Of a stretch of 46,525 nt of DNA, positions 16,016 to 25,411 are shown piece by piece. The notes below the pieces were generated by a model. It was not told where the DNA came from. It did not search any database and saw only the letters and a list, made by a program, of their open reading frames with translations. The stretch is from positions 1 through 46,525 of the forward strand of contig PAQM01000001.1 in assembly GCA_002709305.1 (NCBI GenBank), given 5' to 3'. How positions within the stretch are numbered: the stretch's first letter is position 1; every line of letters begins with the position of its first letter. A program made the translations under genes and the position numbers. Origin of the DNA: Crocinitomicaceae bacterium (GTDB taxonomy: Bacteria; Bacteroidota; Bacteroidia; Flavobacteriales_D; Crocinitomicaceae).

Positions 16016-16465
16016 TCAATATCTAATTTCATCTCCATCTTTATATTTGGTTGTCCGTTTTAACTTACCATTACTTTTCCAATAGTATTTCCAAATTCCA
16101 TCTCGTTTTCCATCAATATAATTTCCTTCAACTAACAAAATACCATTGTAATCATATTCTCTATAAATTCCTTCTTTCCAACCCATATTTTCTAATTCAT
16201 CAATCCAATTTATCTCTTTAAATAATTTACCATTATCAAAATAAATTTTCCATAATCCAATTTTTATACCATCTCGATATTTACCTTTTGAATATAATTG
16301 TCCATTTTCGTAATAGGATTTATAAATTCCCTCTTTCCAACCATCAACTAAAGTAAATTCTTCATTTAATTGACCATTTTCATAATACGTTTTAATTTCT
16401 TCAGTTTGTGAGAAACTTAAAATTGATATAAATACAAATAATAGTAGTGTGTATATTTTAGTCAT
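16016..16465 (-). CDS. YwqK/MORN-variant repeat protein (copy 1 of 4)
   Basis: 149-aa exported protein. The signal peptide 'MTKIYTLLLFVFISILSFSQ' is followed by about five repeats of roughly 23 residues with the core 'YYENGQLxxEG...G.KxGxWKxYY', the MORN_2/YwqK pattern. Databases often call this family 'toxin-antitoxin system YwqK antitoxin', but no toxin gene is visible, and the role of these repeat proteins in Bacteroidota is unknown. The frame is open to 16492; the ATG at 16465 is preferred because it begins a clean signal peptide identical, apart from one residue, to that of the copy at 16731-17219. The first 71 bases of the two genes are 70/71 identical. Confidence 0.78.
   Translation of the reverse strand: MTKIYTLLLFVFISILSFSQTEEIKTYYENGQLNEEFTLVDGWKEGIYKSYYENGQLYSKGKYRDGIKIGLWKIYFDNGKLFKEINWIDELENMGWKEGIYREYDYNGILLVEGNYIDGKRDGIWKYYWKSNGKLKRTTKYKDGDEIRY
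16395..16465 (-). repeat. 71-bp direct duplication, copy A
   Basis: Identical to 17149-17219 except at 16456 (T here, C at 17210 on the plus strand). It covers the start codon and signal peptide of the YwqK-like gene. It marks a recent duplication or gene conversion, because downstream repeats of the two genes have diverged while this part has not. Confidence 0.93.
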
Positions 16466-16482
16466 AATTTTTTTATTAATTT

Positions 16483-16716
16483 TTAATGACACTCCAAAAC
16501 AGTTCTTACATAGGAGATGTTTCCATTAGAATCTAGAAATGTACTAGAAACTGGATCTTGAGAACATTCATTTGAAGGTTCCCTAATACTTTCTACCCAT
16601 TCATAACTTGTTTCAAATGTACTTTCATATACAACAGACTCACACAAACATTTTTTTTCACAAGAATATAGTGTGATAACAATGGTTAGTAAGGTAAATA
16701 ATAAATTAGTTTTCAT
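16483..16716 (-). CDS. small lipoprotein of unknown function
   Basis: 77 aa. The lipoprotein signal 'MKTNLLFTLLTIVITLYSC' puts the lipid-modified Cys at 19, followed by a cysteine-rich start 'CEKKCLCESVVYES'. The short mature part has further cysteines at 'SNECSQDP' and at 'VLECH', the very C-terminus. Several disulfides in an envelope-anchored mini-domain are plausible. No family recognised. It lies between two YwqK-like genes (17 and 14 bases away), within the minus-strand run, and is probably co-transcribed with them. Confidence 0.65.
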   Translation of the reverse strand: MKTNLLFTLLTIVITLYSCEKKCLCESVVYESTFETSYEWVESIREPSNECSQDPVSSTFLDSNGNISYVRTVLECH

Positions 16717-16730
16717 ATTATAAATTAATC

Positions 16731-17219
16731 TTAATCTTTTGTTTCTTCTAACTTACCATTACTTTCCGATAGAATTTTTTCTATATACCTCAGGTAATCT
16801 TCTTCAATCTCTCCTTCTTCTTCAATATGTCTTAACTTACCTTTTTTGTCATAATATTTCCATGTGCCAATTGCGGCTCCAAAAACATAATTACCTTTTA
16901 ATTTTAATTGACCGTTTTCATGATAGCATGTCAAAAGTCCACTTTTTAGTCCATCTTTCCAATTCATTACTGTTTCTAATTTACCACTTTCGTAATATTC
17001 TTTCCAGAGTCCATTTGGTTTGCCATATTTCCAATTCACTTCTTTTTGTAATTTGCCATTTTCAAAATACTGTTTTATTAATCCATCTTTTTTTCCATCA
17101 ACCAAAGTGTATTCTTCTTTTAACTGACCATTCTCATAGTATAATTTGATTTCTTCAGTTTGTGAGAAACTTAAAATTGATATAAATACAAATAATAGTA
17201 GTGTGTATACTTTAGTCAT
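16731..17219 (-). CDS. YwqK/MORN-variant repeat protein (copy 2 of 4)
   Basis: 162 aa. The signal peptide 'MTKVYTLLLFVFISILSFSQ' is followed by about five 23-residue repeats ('YYENGQLKEEYTLVDGKKDG', 'YFENGKLQKEVNWKYGKPNG', 'YYESGKLETVMNWKDGLKSG', 'YHENGQLKLKGNYVFGAAIG', 'YYDKKGKLRHIEEEG'). A charged C-terminal tail without repeats follows. It is the closest paralogue of the gene at 16016-16465: signal sequences are nearly identical in DNA, repeats are not. Its start is three bases from the stop of the lipoprotein gene at 17223. Periplasmic or surface location is inferred from the signal peptide; the partner is unknown. Confidence 0.8.
   Translation of the reverse strand: MTKVYTLLLFVFISILSFSQTEEIKLYYENGQLKEEYTLVDGKKDGLIKQYFENGKLQKEVNWKYGKPNGLWKEYYESGKLETVMNWKDGLKSGLLTCYHENGQLKLKGNYVFGAAIGTWKYYDKKGKLRHIEEEGEIEEDYLRYIEKILSESNGKLEETKD
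17149..17219 (-). repeat. 71-bp direct duplication, copy B
   Basis: Partner of 16395-16465 (70 of 71 bases identical, offset 754). It covers the start codon and signal peptide of the second YwqK-like gene. Confidence 0.93.
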
Positions 17220-19816: not shown

Positions 19817-20290
19817 TTACTCACATTGTATTTCATTACCAGATTTATCAAAACAAATAATATTAATAAGTGTTCCTTTATTATATCTTGTCTTTTTAGA
19901 TAATTCTCCTTCTATGAAATATTCTTCCCATTCCCCATCTTTTATTCCGTTAATAAAAGCACCTTTAAATCTCATTTCGCCATTCTCATAATACCATTCC
20001 CAAACACCATTTTTTTGACCTTCAAACATGTCTCCTTGAGCCTTCAGTTGACCATTTTCATAATAAATACTCCATGTACCATTTCTTTTGCCATTGAGAT
20101 AATTTCCTCGTGTTTTCAGCTGCCCATTTTCATAATAATGTTTACAATCTCCCGCTAAATTAATCCCTATAAACCCTATTTCACTTTTCAAATTACCATT
20201 TTCATAATAATATGTATGTCTTTTCTCCTGTGTATAACAAATTATTGATTGAAAAAAAATAAAAAATATTAAATACAATTTTAGCTTCAT
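19817..20290 (-). CDS. YwqK/MORN-variant repeat protein (copy 3 of 4)
   Basis: 157 aa. The signal peptide 'MKLKLYLIFFIFFQSIICYTQ' is followed by about five repeats: 'YYYENGNLKSEIGF', 'YYENGQLKTRGNYLNGKRNG', 'YYENGQLKAQGDMFEGQKNG', 'YYENGEMRFKGAFINGIKDG' and a last one with 'YFIEGELSKKTRYNKG'. The C-terminus 'INIICFDKSGNEIQCE' closely resembles 'VKISCWDKDGNKQKCTK' of the neighbouring larger copy, so the two share a cysteine-containing cap. The frame opens at 20299, but the ATG at 20288-20290 gives a four-base ATGA overlap with the stop of the upstream gene and is chosen for that reason. Translational coupling to that gene is likely. Confidence 0.82.
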   Translation of the reverse strand: MKLKLYLIFFIFFQSIICYTQEKRHTYYYENGNLKSEIGFIGINLAGDCKHYYENGQLKTRGNYLNGKRNGTWSIYYENGQLKAQGDMFEGQKNGVWEWYYENGEMRFKGAFINGIKDGEWEEYFIEGELSKKTRYNKGTLINIICFDKSGNEIQCE

Positions 20291-21333
20291 TTTGTACACT
20301 TTTGTTTATTACCATCCTTATCCCAACAGGAAATTTTAACAAGGTTACCTTCTTTATATATCCTTTCTATCCATATATCGCCATTTTCATGATAAAATCT
20401 TTCTACTCCATGTGGCTTATCACTCTTTACTATTCCTTCTGCTGACAACTGACCTTTAGAAGTATATTCTTTCCAAGTACCATTTTCCTGACCATTTTCC
20501 CAAATTTCTTCACTTTTAATTTTCCCATTGCGATAATATTCTTTCCAAACACCATCTTTTTTATCATCAATATAACTTCCTTGACTACTTAAAATTCCAT
20601 CTTCATAATATCTATTCCAAACACCGTTTATTTTTCCTTGCTTAAAACTTGCTTCTTCTTTTAATTGACCATCCATATAATACCAGTTCCAAGTTCCCTC
20701 TTTTTGTTTCCTAGGCCTCCAGGCCCCACACTCTTTTAATTGACCATTATCATAATATAACTTGTACATACCATCTTCAAGATTTTCTTTAAATGTTACC
20801 TCTTCTATTAAATTACCCTTTTCATTATAAGATTTAGATAAACCCTCTGCTTGATTATCTATAAAGAGATCTTCTTTTCTTAATACTTGATTTTTATAAT
20901 ATTTCCATGAACCATGTTTTAAATCTTCTTTAAAATTACCTTCTGTTATTAACTGGCCATTTTGGTAGTACTTCCAAAGCCCTGTTTTCATAAAATTATC
21001 GTAAAGTCCTTCTTCTCTTAATTGACCATCTTTATTATACTCTTTATAAACTCCAGAACGTTGTCCATTAATCCAAGATTCTTCAATTTTCAGTTGACCA
21101 TCTTCATAATAATATCTATCTACACCATCTCGTTTACCTTTATTCCAAGATTCTTTAGTTTTTATTTGACCATTTCTAAAATAATATGTCCAAATACCGT
21201 TCTTCTTTCCATCAACTATAATACCTTTTAATTTTAATTCTCCAGTTTCATAATAATCTATTTTATTTTCAGCTTGTGAATAAGATTGGTTTATAAAAAG
21301 AAAAAAAATAATTAATATAAAATATTGATTCAT
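20287..21333 (-). CDS. YwqK/MORN-variant repeat protein, large (copy 4 of 4)
   Basis: 348 aa. The signal peptide 'MNQYFILIIFFLFINQSYSQ' is followed by about thirteen 23-residue repeats with the core 'YYxNGQLKxEGxxxxGKxxGxWKxYY'. Repeats are continuous from about residue 27 to 325 and vary in the 'xNGQLK' and 'GKKNGVW' positions. The protein ends in the cap 'CWDKDGNKQKCTK'. It should form an elongated beta-strand repeat stack outside the cytoplasm. It is the first gene of the nine-gene minus-strand run and overlaps the next one by ATGA. Its start is 71 bases from the divergently read knot-like gene. Function unknown; nothing supports an antitoxin role. Confidence 0.85.
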   Translation of the reverse strand: MNQYFILIIFFLFINQSYSQAENKIDYYETGELKLKGIIVDGKKNGIWTYYFRNGQIKTKESWNKGKRDGVDRYYYEDGQLKIEESWINGQRSGVYKEYNKDGQLREEGLYDNFMKTGLWKYYQNGQLITEGNFKEDLKHGSWKYYKNQVLRKEDLFIDNQAEGLSKSYNEKGNLIEEVTFKENLEDGMYKLYYDNGQLKECGAWRPRKQKEGTWNWYYMDGQLKEEASFKQGKINGVWNRYYEDGILSSQGSYIDDKKDGVWKEYYRNGKIKSEEIWENGQENGTWKEYTSKGQLSAEGIVKSDKPHGVERFYHENGDIWIERIYKEGNLVKISCWDKDGNKQKCTK

Positions 21334-21404: not shown

Positions 21405-21689
21405 ATGAAAAAACTTTGTCTATTAATCTGTTTTATTCCATTTTTTGGAATGAGTCAGGATTATTGTAATATCTACGGAAAAATTAAAATTGTTGACTCT
21501 TTTGAAGATTATAAAGTTAAAATTGTGGATTCTTTTGAAGATATCAAAATACTAAAAGTGGATTCTTTTTCAGATCAAGAAGGAAGATGGGAAATTGTGG
21601 ATTCTTTTGAAGATTTCAAAATTAAATTTGTAGATTCTTTTGAAGACTTTACAATTAAGTTTGTAGACTCTTTTGAAGGATGTGATTGA
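21405..21689 (+). CDS. small secreted VDSF-repeat protein, probable 7(1) septoil-knot (DUF6150-like) family
   Basis: 94 aa. A signal peptide ends at 'FFGMSQ'. The mature part begins 'DYCNIYGKIKIVDSFED' and consists of six repeats with 'VDSF' at residues 30, 41, 52, 65, 76 and 87, that is steps of 11, 11, 13, 11 and 11. A short insert 'DQEGRW' in the middle breaks the period. C21 and C93 flank the whole array and could close it by a disulfide. The YGKIKIVD opening, the repeat and the C-terminal 'EGC' fit small Bacteroidetes proteins annotated as 7(1) septoil knot domain proteins, as I remember them. Knotting is a structural prediction for that family, not visible here. The gene is alone on its strand between the YwqK run and the protease. 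Its function is unknown. Confidence 0.75.
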   Translation: MKKLCLLICFIPFFGMSQDYCNIYGKIKIVDSFEDYKVKIVDSFEDIKILKVDSFSDQEGRWEIVDSFEDFKIKFVDSFEDFTIKFVDSFEGCD

Positions 21690-21865: not shown

Positions 21866-24800
21866 ATGAAACTTACATTACTCGCTTTATTATTCACTTT
21901 AGGAATAACTAATCTTTATGCTCAGACAGTAAATCGTTGGTATCAAGACGGAAAAATCATTTTTGAATTATCAAATAAAATTGAAAAATTTAAAACAATT
22001 AATGGTTTTGTGCCAATCCAAAATTCACCATTTGGTAATATCCTTTTGTCTGATTATAAGATTAAATCTATTAAACCACTCCATCCTAAAATCAATGATC
22101 AAAAATTATCTAGAACATACGAGATTGAATTTGAAGAATTTTCTTTAGTTGAAAATTTAATTGATTGGATAAAACAAAATATAAATATCGTTTATGTGGA
22201 GAAAAAAGAACTTCATGAATCTTTTTTGACTCCAAATGACACCTATTTTTCGAGTTCATTTAGCAATGGTCAATGGGGGCTTTATCAAATAAATGCTCCT
22301 CAAGCTTGGGACATATCAACAGGTGACGCAAATGTTGTGGTGGCAGTTACAGATAATGCTATACAAATTAATCACCCTGATCTCGTTAACAAAGTTGTTG
22401 CAGGAAGAGATGTAGTCGATAATGACAATGATCCTTCTCCTTGTGGAGGAAACAGTGGTTTTCATGGGTCTCATGTTTCCGGTATTGTGGGTGCTGAGAC
22501 AAATAACAACCAAGGAATTGCATCCATAGGATACAACGTAAGTATTATGCCTATAAAAATTGGTAACTGCTCGACAGGAGCGTTAACTGGAGGATATGAT
22601 GGTATTATTTGGGCTGTAGATAATGGTGCTGATGCAGTAAATATGTCCTGGGGTGGTGGTGGAGTTTCTACTTATGGACAAAATGTTTGTGATTATGCAT
22701 GGAATAATGGTGTAATCTTAGTTGCAGCAGCAGGTAATGATGGAACAAGTCAGCAATTTTATCCTGCAGCTTATAACAATGTTATTAGTGTTGCATCAAC
22801 TACTAGCGGAGATTCTAAGTCTAGTTTTTCCCAATATGGAAGTTGGATTGATGTTGCTGCACCTGGATCACAAATTTTAAGTTGTAACGAAGGAACTTCA
22901 TATCAATTTACTCAAGGAACTTCAATGGCATCGCCAATGGTAGCAGGTCTTGTTGGACTTATGATTTCTCATGCCCCATCAGCAACACCTCAAGACATTA
23001 TTAATTGCTTATTATCATCTGCAGACAATATTGATGGAGCTAATCCAAGCTATTCTGGTCTATTAGGTGCTGGAAGAATCAACGCTGAAAGTGCACTAAT
23101 TTGTCTTAATTCTTTTACATATAGTCTAGATGCGGGAATAACACAAATCTTTTCTCCGGATGGTCAAGTTTGTTCAGCCAATGTTACACCTCAATTTGAG
23201 TTAAAAAATTATGGAAGTCAAACATTAACATCAGCAACTATATCATATCAATACGATAATGGAGCAACTCAAACAATTAATTGGAATGGATCTCTAACTC
23301 AAGGATCTTTTGAAACTGTATCACTTCCATCACAAACTTTAGGAACAGGTAATCATTCTTTAAATATAACATGTACTAGTACAAATGGATCTAGCGACCA
23401 AAACAACACTAATGATTTACAATCAACAAACTTTGAAATTATCCCAAATGGTCAATCTGTTACAGTAGAAATAACTACGGACTGTTTTGGTTCTGAAGTT
23501 CAATGGAACATTTCAGATCAAACTAACAACAATATTATTACCTCGGGAGGACCGTATCCTGATATTAGTGGTGGTGACACATATCAGAGTAATGTGTGTC
23601 TAGCATCTGGGTGCTATAACTTTACAATTACAGATGATTACGGCGATGGTATGTATGGAAGCCAATGGAATAGCTGTAGTGTAGACGGGTCTTATTCTAT
23701 ATATGAAAATAATGGAAATGTTTTAGCTTCTATTCAAGCTACAAACTCTGATTATGGGAATCAAGAAATAAATAATTTCTGTATCACATCTAACTTATCT
23801 TATGACGTAGGTATAAGTCAGATAATTTCGCCTTCTTCTACTATATGTAGTGGGTCAGTTCAAGCTGAGGTAGAACTTTTCAACTACGGTTCCCAAACAA
23901 TATCATCAGTTGACCTAACATACAATTATGGAGGGGGGAATTCATCCACTTCATATAATGGTAATATTCAACCTGGATCCTCCGTTATTATTACCCTTCC
24001 AACTTACAATGGTTCAACAGGCCCAGAGACATTTAGTATAACAACCTCAAACCCTAATGGAAACCAAGATCAAAACACTTTAAATGATAACATGACTAGT
24101 AACTATTACCTTTATGATTCATATGTAAGTCTTCCATTTACAGAAAATTTCGAATCTAATAGTTTTAACTCTAACAATTGGTACACAACTAATGCTGATA
24201 ATGATATCACTTGGGAAATTGTAACAGTTGTTGGTACATCACCAGGAAATAAAGCAACGAAAATTGACTTTTTTAATTATTCAGATGGAGATGAAAGAGA
24301 TGGGTTCCAAACACCACCATTAGATTTTGGGCCATACAGTAACATACAATTAACATTCGAACATGCTTTTAGAAGATATAATCAAGAATCTCGAGATTCC
24401 CTAGCCATTCTTATATCTACTGATTGTGGTTCATCTTTTCAATACCTTGGAAGTTATGCTGAAGACGGAACAGGAACACTTGCTACTGCCTATACTTCTA
24501 CTGTTGAATTTGTTCCTACAGCAGCTGATTGGTGCACTGGTACTGTAGGAGCGGATTGTTTTACTATTGACCTAAACGCTTTTTCTGGAATCAGTGGAGT
24601 TATTATAAAATTTGAATCTGTCAATAATGGAATTGCAGGAAATAATCTTTTTATAGATAATATAAATATTTCAGGAGTAAATATAGGGGCTCCAAATGCC
24701 TCTTTTAGTGCTCAAAATAGTATTTGTATTGGAGAGAGTATTCAATTTACTGACAATTCTTCTGGGACAATAAATTCATGGAATTGGGATTTTGGAGATG

Positions 24801-25411
24801 GTAATTTTAGCTCTAACCCTAATCCATCATACCAATATTCTTCACCTGGAATATATACTGTTCAACTTACTGTCTCAAATGTAAATGGTACAGATACTGA
24901 ATTTCAAACCATTACTGTAAATGACTTACCAAATGTATCTTTAACAAGCCCTATTCTTCAAGTATGTAATACAGACAATGCCTTTAATATTACTGGTTCG
25001 CCTGCTGGTGGAAATTATTCAGGGCCGGGAGTCAATGGGTCTAGCTTTAATCCATCAATCGCAGCTATAGGAGCAAATACTATTACTTATGACTATACAG
25101 ATAATAATGGCTGTTCTGGATCTAGTCAAATTACTATTATTGTTGACGATTGTGCTAACATCAAAGAAAACCAGCTTAATTCTGTTGCCTTATATCCAAA
25201 TCCAAGTAAAGGTACCTTTACTTTCTCAAAAATTACTGATGGATCTAGAGTTGAAGTATACAGCATAGATGGAAAATGTATTTATAATAAATTAATTTCA
25301 AATCAAGATAGTTGGATTAGCATTAATGATGCAGAAAGCGGAATATATAATGTAAAACTTAAACTAAGTAACTCTGAAAAGAACTTTAAGTTGATAATTA
25401 GTACATATTAG
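21866..25411 (+). CDS. T9SS-secreted S8 subtilisin-like protease with PKD and type A sorting domain
   Basis: 1181 aa. After the signal peptide 'MKLTLLALLFTLGITNLYAQ' comes a propeptide-like region (to about 125) and then a peptidase S8 domain. The catalytic triad is D163 ('VAVTDNAIQINHPDL'), H200 ('GFHGSHVSGIVGA') and S353 ('GTSMASPMVAGLVG'), with the oxyanion Asn in 'VAAAGNDG'. The usual DTG around the first Asp reads TDNA. Two adhesion-type modules with 'YGSQT' follow, then a jelly-roll-like region opened by 'LPFTENFESNSF', a PKD domain ('WNWDFGDGNFSSNPNP') and a cysteine-bearing module. The end 'ALYPNPSKGTFTF...VEVYSIDGKCIY...ESGIYNVKLK' is the type A T9SS sorting signal. All triad residues are present, so an active secreted protease for protein degradation is expected. 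It is followed 11 bases later by the alkyltransferase-like gene. Confidence 0.94.
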   Translation: MKLTLLALLFTLGITNLYAQTVNRWYQDGKIIFELSNKIEKFKTINGFVPIQNSPFGNILLSDYKIKSIKPLHPKINDQKLSRTYEIEFEEFSLVENLIDWIKQNINIVYVEKKELHESFLTPNDTYFSSSFSNGQWGLYQINAPQAWDISTGDANVVVAVTDNAIQINHPDLVNKVVAGRDVVDNDNDPSPCGGNSGFHGSHVSGIVGAETNNNQGIASIGYNVSIMPIKIGNCSTGALTGGYDGIIWAVDNGADAVNMSWGGGGVSTYGQNVCDYAWNNGVILVAAAGNDGTSQQFYPAAYNNVISVASTTSGDSKSSFSQYGSWIDVAAPGSQILSCNEGTSYQFTQGTSMASPMVAGLVGLMISHAPSATPQDIINCLLSSADNIDGANPSYSGLLGAGRINAESALICLNSFTYSLDAGITQIFSPDGQVCSANVTPQFELKNYGSQTLTSATISYQYDNGATQTINWNGSLTQGSFETVSLPSQTLGTGNHSLNITCTSTNGSSDQNNTNDLQSTNFEIIPNGQSVTVEITTDCFGSEVQWNISDQTNNNIITSGGPYPDISGGDTYQSNVCLASGCYNFTITDDYGDGMYGSQWNSCSVDGSYSIYENNGNVLASIQATNSDYGNQEINNFCITSNLSYDVGISQIISPSSTICSGSVQAEVELFNYGSQTISSVDLTYNYGGGNSSTSYNGNIQPGSSVIITLPTYNGSTGPETFSITTSNPNGNQDQNTLNDNMTSNYYLYDSYVSLPFTENFESNSFNSNNWYTTNADNDITWEIVTVVGTSPGNKATKIDFFNYSDGDERDGFQTPPLDFGPYSNIQLTFEHAFRRYNQESRDSLAILISTDCGSSFQYLGSYAEDGTGTLATAYTSTVEFVPTAADWCTGTVGADCFTIDLNAFSGISGVIIKFESVNNGIAGNNLFIDNINISGVNIGAPNASFSAQNSICIGESIQFTDNSSGTINSWNWDFGDGNFSSNPNPSYQYSSPGIYTVQLTVSNVNGTDTEFQTITVNDLPNVSLTSPILQVCNTDNAFNITGSPAGGNYSGPGVNGSSFNPSIAAIGANTITYDYTDNNGCSGSSQITIIVDDCANIKENQLNSVALYPNPSKGTFTFSKITDGSRVEVYSIDGKCIYNKLISNQDSWISINDAESGIYNVKLKLSNSEKNFKLIISTY

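Follow-up and report, generated by a model that had tools for sequence, protein, structure and literature searches.

Does a small secreted protein built of six near-identical repeats fold into a knot, and could a single disulfide tie that knot shut? The question is raised by an open reading frame (ORF; P0001) at 21405..21689 on the forward strand of a 46,525-nucleotide stretch of DNA from a Crocinitomicaceae bacterium, referred to here as the window. Knots in protein backbones are open-ended, and according to PMC8182377 the knot status of a chain depends on how its ends are joined. A closed seven-crossing torus knot, if true, would be far more complex than the known disulfide-closed trefoils. 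We put the chances at about even that the protein is an exported torus-knot mini-protein, perhaps closed by a disulfide; it might act as a sturdy binding scaffold.

An exported repeat protein and its kin

The ORF encodes 94 amino acids plus a stop codon, and its reverse strand contains four stops in the frame read. The first-pass annotation had listed VDSF motifs at residues 30, 41, 52, 65, 76 and 87, an insert of two extra residues in mid-array, and single cysteines just outside both ends. The translation agrees on each point: the motifs are spaced by 11, 11, 13, 11, and 11 residues, so that the midpoint step is 13 and not 11, and the flanking C21 (21465..21467) and C93 (21681..21683) are the sole cysteines within residues 19–94. 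VDSF occurs six times, compared with at most two in 20,000 shuffles of residues 19–94.

Residues 1–18 (MKKLCLLICFIPFFGMSQ; 21405..21458), which include C5 and C9, form a signal-peptide-like start with a mean hydropathy of 2.65 over residues 4–15. This N-terminus resembles a Sec signal peptide, and cleavage would be expected after SQ, leaving a mature part of about residues 19–94 (9 kDa, pI 4.25). The nearest relative, an orthologue at locus L003, is 82% identical. Between the two genes, dN is 0.06–0.08 and dS is 0.65, 2.2 or 3.7 depending on the method (71 codons), which indicates purifying selection on the protein sequence. A promoter and terminator scan returned 11 promoter sites (5.6 ± 2.4 in shuffles) and no terminator.

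The protein matched PDB entry 8iwa (UU089.1, identical to Q9PR55) with an E-value of 4.6e-9 in a phmmer search. This was the only PDB match at E ≤ 0.001; the next stood at E 1. A relative's protein reached 8iwa at E 4.3e-14, and a profile of the family did so at E 4.2e-12, as its only PDB match at E ≤ 0.1. The NMR entry 8JRM, named by Foldseek, is titled "Solution structure of a 7_1 knotted Q9PR55". The kinship to seven-crossing knot proteins proposed in the first-pass annotation is supported by homology to this protein and by collinear repeats. Q9PR55, a Ureaplasma protein (8IWA, 8IWB, 8IWC, 8JRM, 8W68), is homologous over 63 residue pairs, with 23–26 identities (36.5–41.3%, depending on gap placement) and one 2-residue gap. 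Its repeats, read by eye from the printed 8iwa stretch, start at 30, 41, 54, 67, and 78; the first two positions coincide with those of the window protein, the later ones are shifted by two, and the same 13-residue step separates repeats 3 and 4. Q9PR55 differs in having its own 2-residue insertion between repeats 2 and 3, a length of 89 residues, and one cysteine within stretch 19–85. From Q9PR55, in turn, the window protein is set apart by its signal-peptide-like start, the GxW at its midpoint, and the cysteine pair at its termini.

A second whole-length match was to phrog_6462, a family of unknown function (E 6.9e-22; residues 2–92 aligned to positions 2–101 of 103). Similarity to the phrog_6462/Q9PR55-like family extends over the whole core, and the six repeats are arranged as three plus three around a fixed midpoint insert. 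Judged by sequence, the window protein is a further member of the Q9PR55-like family, with a distinctive cysteine variant.

The first-pass annotation had also pointed to the DUF6150 profile (PF19647). This profile did not match the window protein; its best place in the genome lay elsewhere and scored 13.2 bits, against a curated cut-off of 27 bits. DUF6150 resembles the family in its signal-peptide-like start, its six repeats, and a G-L-W midpoint insert, and differs in its 13-residue repeats and a midpoint step of 16 (in L040). Aligned by hhalign, the trimmed cores of the two gave an E-value of 2.8e-4 and a probability of 41%, which rose to 94% when the signal peptides were kept. A Pfam scan of the window protein returned 0 families, NCBIfam gave two weak matches (E 0.087 and 0.2) far under the cut-off, and a BFVD structure search found nothing at E ≤ 0.001. 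Matches of a relative to Pfam DUF6893 and NCBIfam SelT/W/H were under the cut-off and were set aside. Among the literature matches listed, titles and the starts of abstracts contained nothing on the exported subfamily or its cysteines.

Repeat arrangement and the path of the chain

The core falls into two halves. Repeats 1–3 (residues 25–57; 21477..21575) and repeats 4–6 (residues 60–92; 21582..21680) are separated by the insert Q58-E59, which together with G60-R61-W62 forms the midpoint (21576..21590). Of the 71 parsed relatives, 70 have a distance of 35 residues between the first-repeat glycine and the midpoint residue ([GS]xW), and the remaining one has 37. L132, L133, L134, L092, L039, L004, and L127 were left out of this count and L091 was unparsed; the omitted ORFs include deviants, namely L004, which has one repeat fewer, and L092 and L132–L134, which have irregular cores. 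The repeats had been called unusually uniform, a description that does not single out the window protein: relatives of the VDYGED type, for example L113, are equally uniform.

If the chain follows the Q9PR55 path, it would run twice round a ring, first with repeats 1–3 and then with repeats 4–6, and the insert would join the two laps. Repeats 1 and 4, 2 and 5, and 3 and 6 would then be partners. We compared the repeats across the parsed cores, also omitting L034 (70 cores, merged to 65). The partner pairs had a mean similarity of 3.10 ± 0.61, versus 0.06 ± 0.70 for sequential pairs. Pairs 2–5 and 1–4 ranked within the top four of the 15 repeat pairs; repeats 3 and 6 were dissimilar (−4.09), and the sequential pairs 1–2 and 2–3 were about as similar as 1–4. 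At the loop positions alone there was no difference (0.39 ± 0.64 vs 0.28 ± 0.69). On average, repeat similarity leans toward the Q9PR55 path, and an old duplication could also explain it. Covariation between repeats was all-against-all and does not separate the wirings.

The AlphaFold2 (AF2) model, built from 18 sequences, has block pLDDT values of 92–96 over residues 21–90 and a pTM of 0.70. It places one strand in each repeat (residues 25–29, 36–40, 47–52, 61–64, 71–75, and 82–87). Foldseek returned four matches at E ≤ 0.001, all of them Q9PR55 entries: two chains of 8iwa, 8iwb, and 8jrm. The comparison with Q9PR55 had a probability of 1.0 and an E-value of 3.6e-5, with a TM-score of 0.31 and an rmsd of 10.2 Å over 64 columns; its 38% identity fits the in-register sequence alignment. 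The model therefore fails to superimpose on the solved 7_1 fold, being locally alike while its global path differs. Either the shallow alignment led the model to mis-wire near-identical repeats, or the window protein may be wired differently.

The poor superposition raises the prospect that the protein is unknotted, as a small β-solenoid in which six 11-residue turns would be stacked sequentially, kin to Q9PR55 yet wired differently, with the cysteines capping its ends. The likeness of the neighbouring repeats 1–2 and 2–3 would suit such a stack, and homologues can apparently differ in topology: PMC9278004 gives different predicted knots within the group, 7_1 for Q9PR55 and 5_1 for P73136, which are 48% identical. 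However, none of the Foldseek matches points to a solenoid, since the other four of the eight returned up to E 10 have titles that are not those of solenoids. A fixed insert between repeats 3 and 4 would have no evident reason in a sequential stack, and end-to-end cysteines would presumably sit far apart in a straight one. In addition, PMC10672856 reports that AlphaFold permits chain passage and that its topology is unreliable, so the bad superposition weighs less. We consider the solenoid unlikely.

The Q9PR55 path is favoured because of the homology and the fixed midpoint, and the core probably folds as the seven-crossing torus knot of Q9PR55. The knot in Q9PR55 was confirmed by X-ray crystallography, per a 2026 review (PMC13352647). 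Its knotted core, residues 27–83 according to PMC9278004, maps to residues 27–81 of the window protein.

We abandoned the notion of a repeat number fixed at six, since L004 has five repeats and L132–L134 apparently five (by eye). The L004 ORF (5001–5249) has exactly one 11-residue repeat fewer than the window protein, to which it is 72% identical in the alignment and 61% by tblastn. With exact internal repeats of 16 bp at most, it shows no obvious sign of assembly collapse. The AF2 model of this five-repeat relative had a pLDDT of 46 and a pTM of 0.19, giving no usable fold. By eye, the ORFs at L132 (1486–1749), L133 (1486–1758), and L134 (1441–1758) look intermediate between the family and DUF6150: their end resembles that of DUF6150, and two repeats seem to precede the midpoint and three to follow it.

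Two cysteine pairs and possible closure of the core

A family profile search of the fetched loci identified 79 distinct ORFs, and cysteine positions were counted in 72 of them (L132, L133, L134, L092, L039, L127, and L091 omitted). N-terminal and middle cysteines occurred together in 41 ORFs, N-terminal and C-terminal cysteines in 18, none at these sites in 12, and an unpaired one in 1. Many of the 72 are near-identical and they form 13 clusters at 70% identity; the N-terminal plus middle pair is present in 8 clusters, the N-terminal plus C-terminal pair in 4, and neither in 3, one cluster containing all three states.

The first pair (39 ORFs, plus L009 and L094, which have a C-terminal cysteine as well) consists of a cysteine 8–10 residues before the first-repeat glycine and one just before the midpoint glycine. 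The second pair (18 ORFs, the window protein included) consists of a cysteine 4 residues before the first glycine and one directly after the last repeat. This end-to-end pair, of the C21/C93 type, is thus conserved as a pair across 18 of the 72 relatives counted. It recurs, with the same spacing, in relatives of the VDYGED type (L108–L111, L113–L119, L130) and the SGE type (L126, L128, L129), which belong to other genera of the same family and to other families and have VDYGED or mixed SGED/SGEK units where the window protein has VDSFED. Among the 12 site-free ORFs, L050 and L051 have a lone cysteine elsewhere and L070 has one in its signal-peptide-like start. Extra cysteines outside the pairs were seen in L050, L051, L075, L105, and L004, and in the start region of L001 and L109.

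The existence of two alternative cysteine pairs among the 72 relatives is new here. We infer that they represent alternative disulfides, matching the pattern of co-occurrence. A bridge between the second pair, which lies before repeat 1 and after repeat 6, would close the whole six-repeat core. Under the proposed mechanism, the exported mini-protein, homologous to Q9PR55 and comprising about residues 19–94, would join C21 to C93 after export; the entire core would then lie inside one covalent loop, and the knot could not untie. Six near-identical loops could be displayed round a ring that would resist unfolding and proteases. We see about an even chance that the C21–C93 disulfide forms after export and closes the proposed knot.

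Such an arrangement has precedents of a simpler kind. Knots in closed covalent loops are termed deterministic (PMC6323932, PMC13352647). Natural disulfide-based trefoils exist, for example coagulogen, 1aoc (PMC6323932), and YibK has been closed artificially, by ligation (PMC8182377). In both, as proposed here, a knot lies inside a closed covalent loop, but these are trefoils, whereas here one natural disulfide would close a putative 7_1 knot. In the designed ring-shaped helical repeat proteins of PMC10598012 the termini are juxtaposed, and the designs were extended to torus knots, which makes an end-to-end bridge geometrically plausible.

The chain might also be knotted like Q9PR55 with C21 and C93 reduced, binding a metal, or linking two molecules, so that the ends would stay unclosed within the chain. 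This possibility carries real weight, if short of an even chance. Three families of oxidase, VKOR, Thioredoxin_4, and DSBA, had no member in this genome (controls positive in 3/14, 10/14, and 9/14), as unclosed ends would allow. Signal-peptide-like ORFs with 1–8 cysteines also showed no significant even-cysteine bias: 19 were even and 14 odd, compared with 109 and 106 among the others (17% sample plus the window), a slight lean that is not evidence. Against unclosed ends, 19 ORFs have the C-terminal cysteine and lack the middle site, and 18 of them contain the N-terminal partner, the exception being L112, an ORF cut by the contig start. Moreover, L009 and L094 are the only ORFs that combine the middle with the C-terminal site, and both have a further N-terminal cysteine.

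Closure by the conserved pair is directly testable by mass spectrometry on the 76-residue mature protein, and the two alternative pairs offer a natural comparison on one fold.

Distribution, neighbours and prophage-borne copies

By taxonomic rank, relatives were found in 2 of 34 genomes for the genus, 28 of 399 for the order, 18 of 395 for the class, and 10 of 296 for the phylum; the samples overlap, and the window's genome is counted in all four. The distribution of the family is patchy. For comparison, 69 of 150 genomes sampled from the order contained DUF6150, with no match in the window's genome. Attribution to Bacteroidetes, as originally proposed, proved too narrow, as relatives also occur in Halothiobacillus- and Melainabacteria-labelled records and on Leptospira and Burkholderia replicons.

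In the window, the gene lies between a MORN_2 protein (20287–21333, reverse strand) and an S8 subtilase (21866–25411, forward strand), as described beforehand, and the subtilase carries a Por secretion tail. Four MORN-like EYYENGQLK repeat proteins are encoded on the reverse strand at 16016–16492, 16731–17219, 19817–20299, and 20287–21333, interspersed with a CobW GTPase and a metallo-β-lactamase-fold protein; the MORN_2 assignment by profile covers 20287–21333 only. Neither the MORN_2 gene nor the subtilase regularly accompanies the gene in the relatives compared. MORN-like neighbours were seen at L152, where the protein resembles that of the window, and at L056, by eye. Clustering over 69 loci, including the window (some, for example L003 and L151, being the same contig), revealed no widely shared neighbour; one cluster spans 10 loci, including L058, L059, L060, and L066, and the other non-phage clusters span at most 6. 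In L058, L059, L060, and L066, which come from one family of the phylum, the gene consistently adjoins a serA-like gene, and the L066 copy is partial with a stop in frame. The L003 gene adjoins glmS, which is 5.6 kb off in the window.

An inhibitor or chaperone of the adjacent subtilase could be imagined, as the two genes are adjacent on the same strand and both products have signal-peptide-like starts. However, the 176 bp gap does not show co-transcription, and only one similar neighbour, weak and partial, was found among the loci compared (L055, 26% over 272 aa, E 7e-7). No protease-like ORF was seen by eye in L003 (3 kb) or L004 (7.5 kb). This role is very improbable.

The family is also present on 26 distinct viral contigs, and neighbourhoods were read for 12. 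In L075 two baseplate-hub genes enclose the gene, which is on the opposite strand; in L092 it adjoins one such gene, again on the opposite strand, and in L090 it is located just upstream of one. It adjoins an Rz spanin and an endolysin in L067 and a minor tail gene in L070, and is one ORF from the terminase small subunit in L068. On a Leptospira plasmid, within an annotated tail module, it immediately precedes the baseplate J gene. In L052, L053, L075, L090, and L092, copies on either strand stand beside baseplate genes in the tail modules of unlike prophages. By eye, 24 of the 26 viral copies have signal-peptide-like starts (exceptions L068 and L069), which makes a role as exported accessory genes likelier than one as parts of the virion; the L067 and L074 copies have no ATG at that start.

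These observations would also fit a prophage-derived moron, exported to protect the lysogen, for example by blocking phage adsorption or DNA entry, and since domesticated in the window's genome. The profile match, the signal-peptide-like starts, and the position of the copies beside phage structural or lysis genes on the Leptospira plasmid and in L075, L092, L090, L067, and L070 speak for such an origin. The window copy, however, showed no sign of a prophage among the neighbours examined (no phage-like domain in a Pfam scan of 7), four tblastn queries had no match in 50,697 phage records, and PADLOC anti-phage defence profiles returned 0 families. The reading of the viral loci extends to 12 of the 26, and the L050 and L051 contigs are not phage-like. 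We regard a domesticated moron as improbable.

Returning to the exported, possibly closed knot, the presence of copies in prophages suggests that the trait benefits the host cell or the resident phage. A role as an accessory binding scaffold, either periplasmic or extracellular, is a doubtful assignment for the protein, offered as one candidate function. The occurrence of relatives in both bacteria and prophages provides context for asking what purpose such knots may serve, in the form of export, a patchy accessory gene, and a baseplate neighbourhood. The full combination, an exported 7_1 knot closed by an end-to-end disulfide, in a family with two alternative disulfides that is found in unlike prophages by baseplate genes, is put forward tentatively.

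At L157 (G403:C96), a single contig holds two diverged family members, about 3 kb apart.
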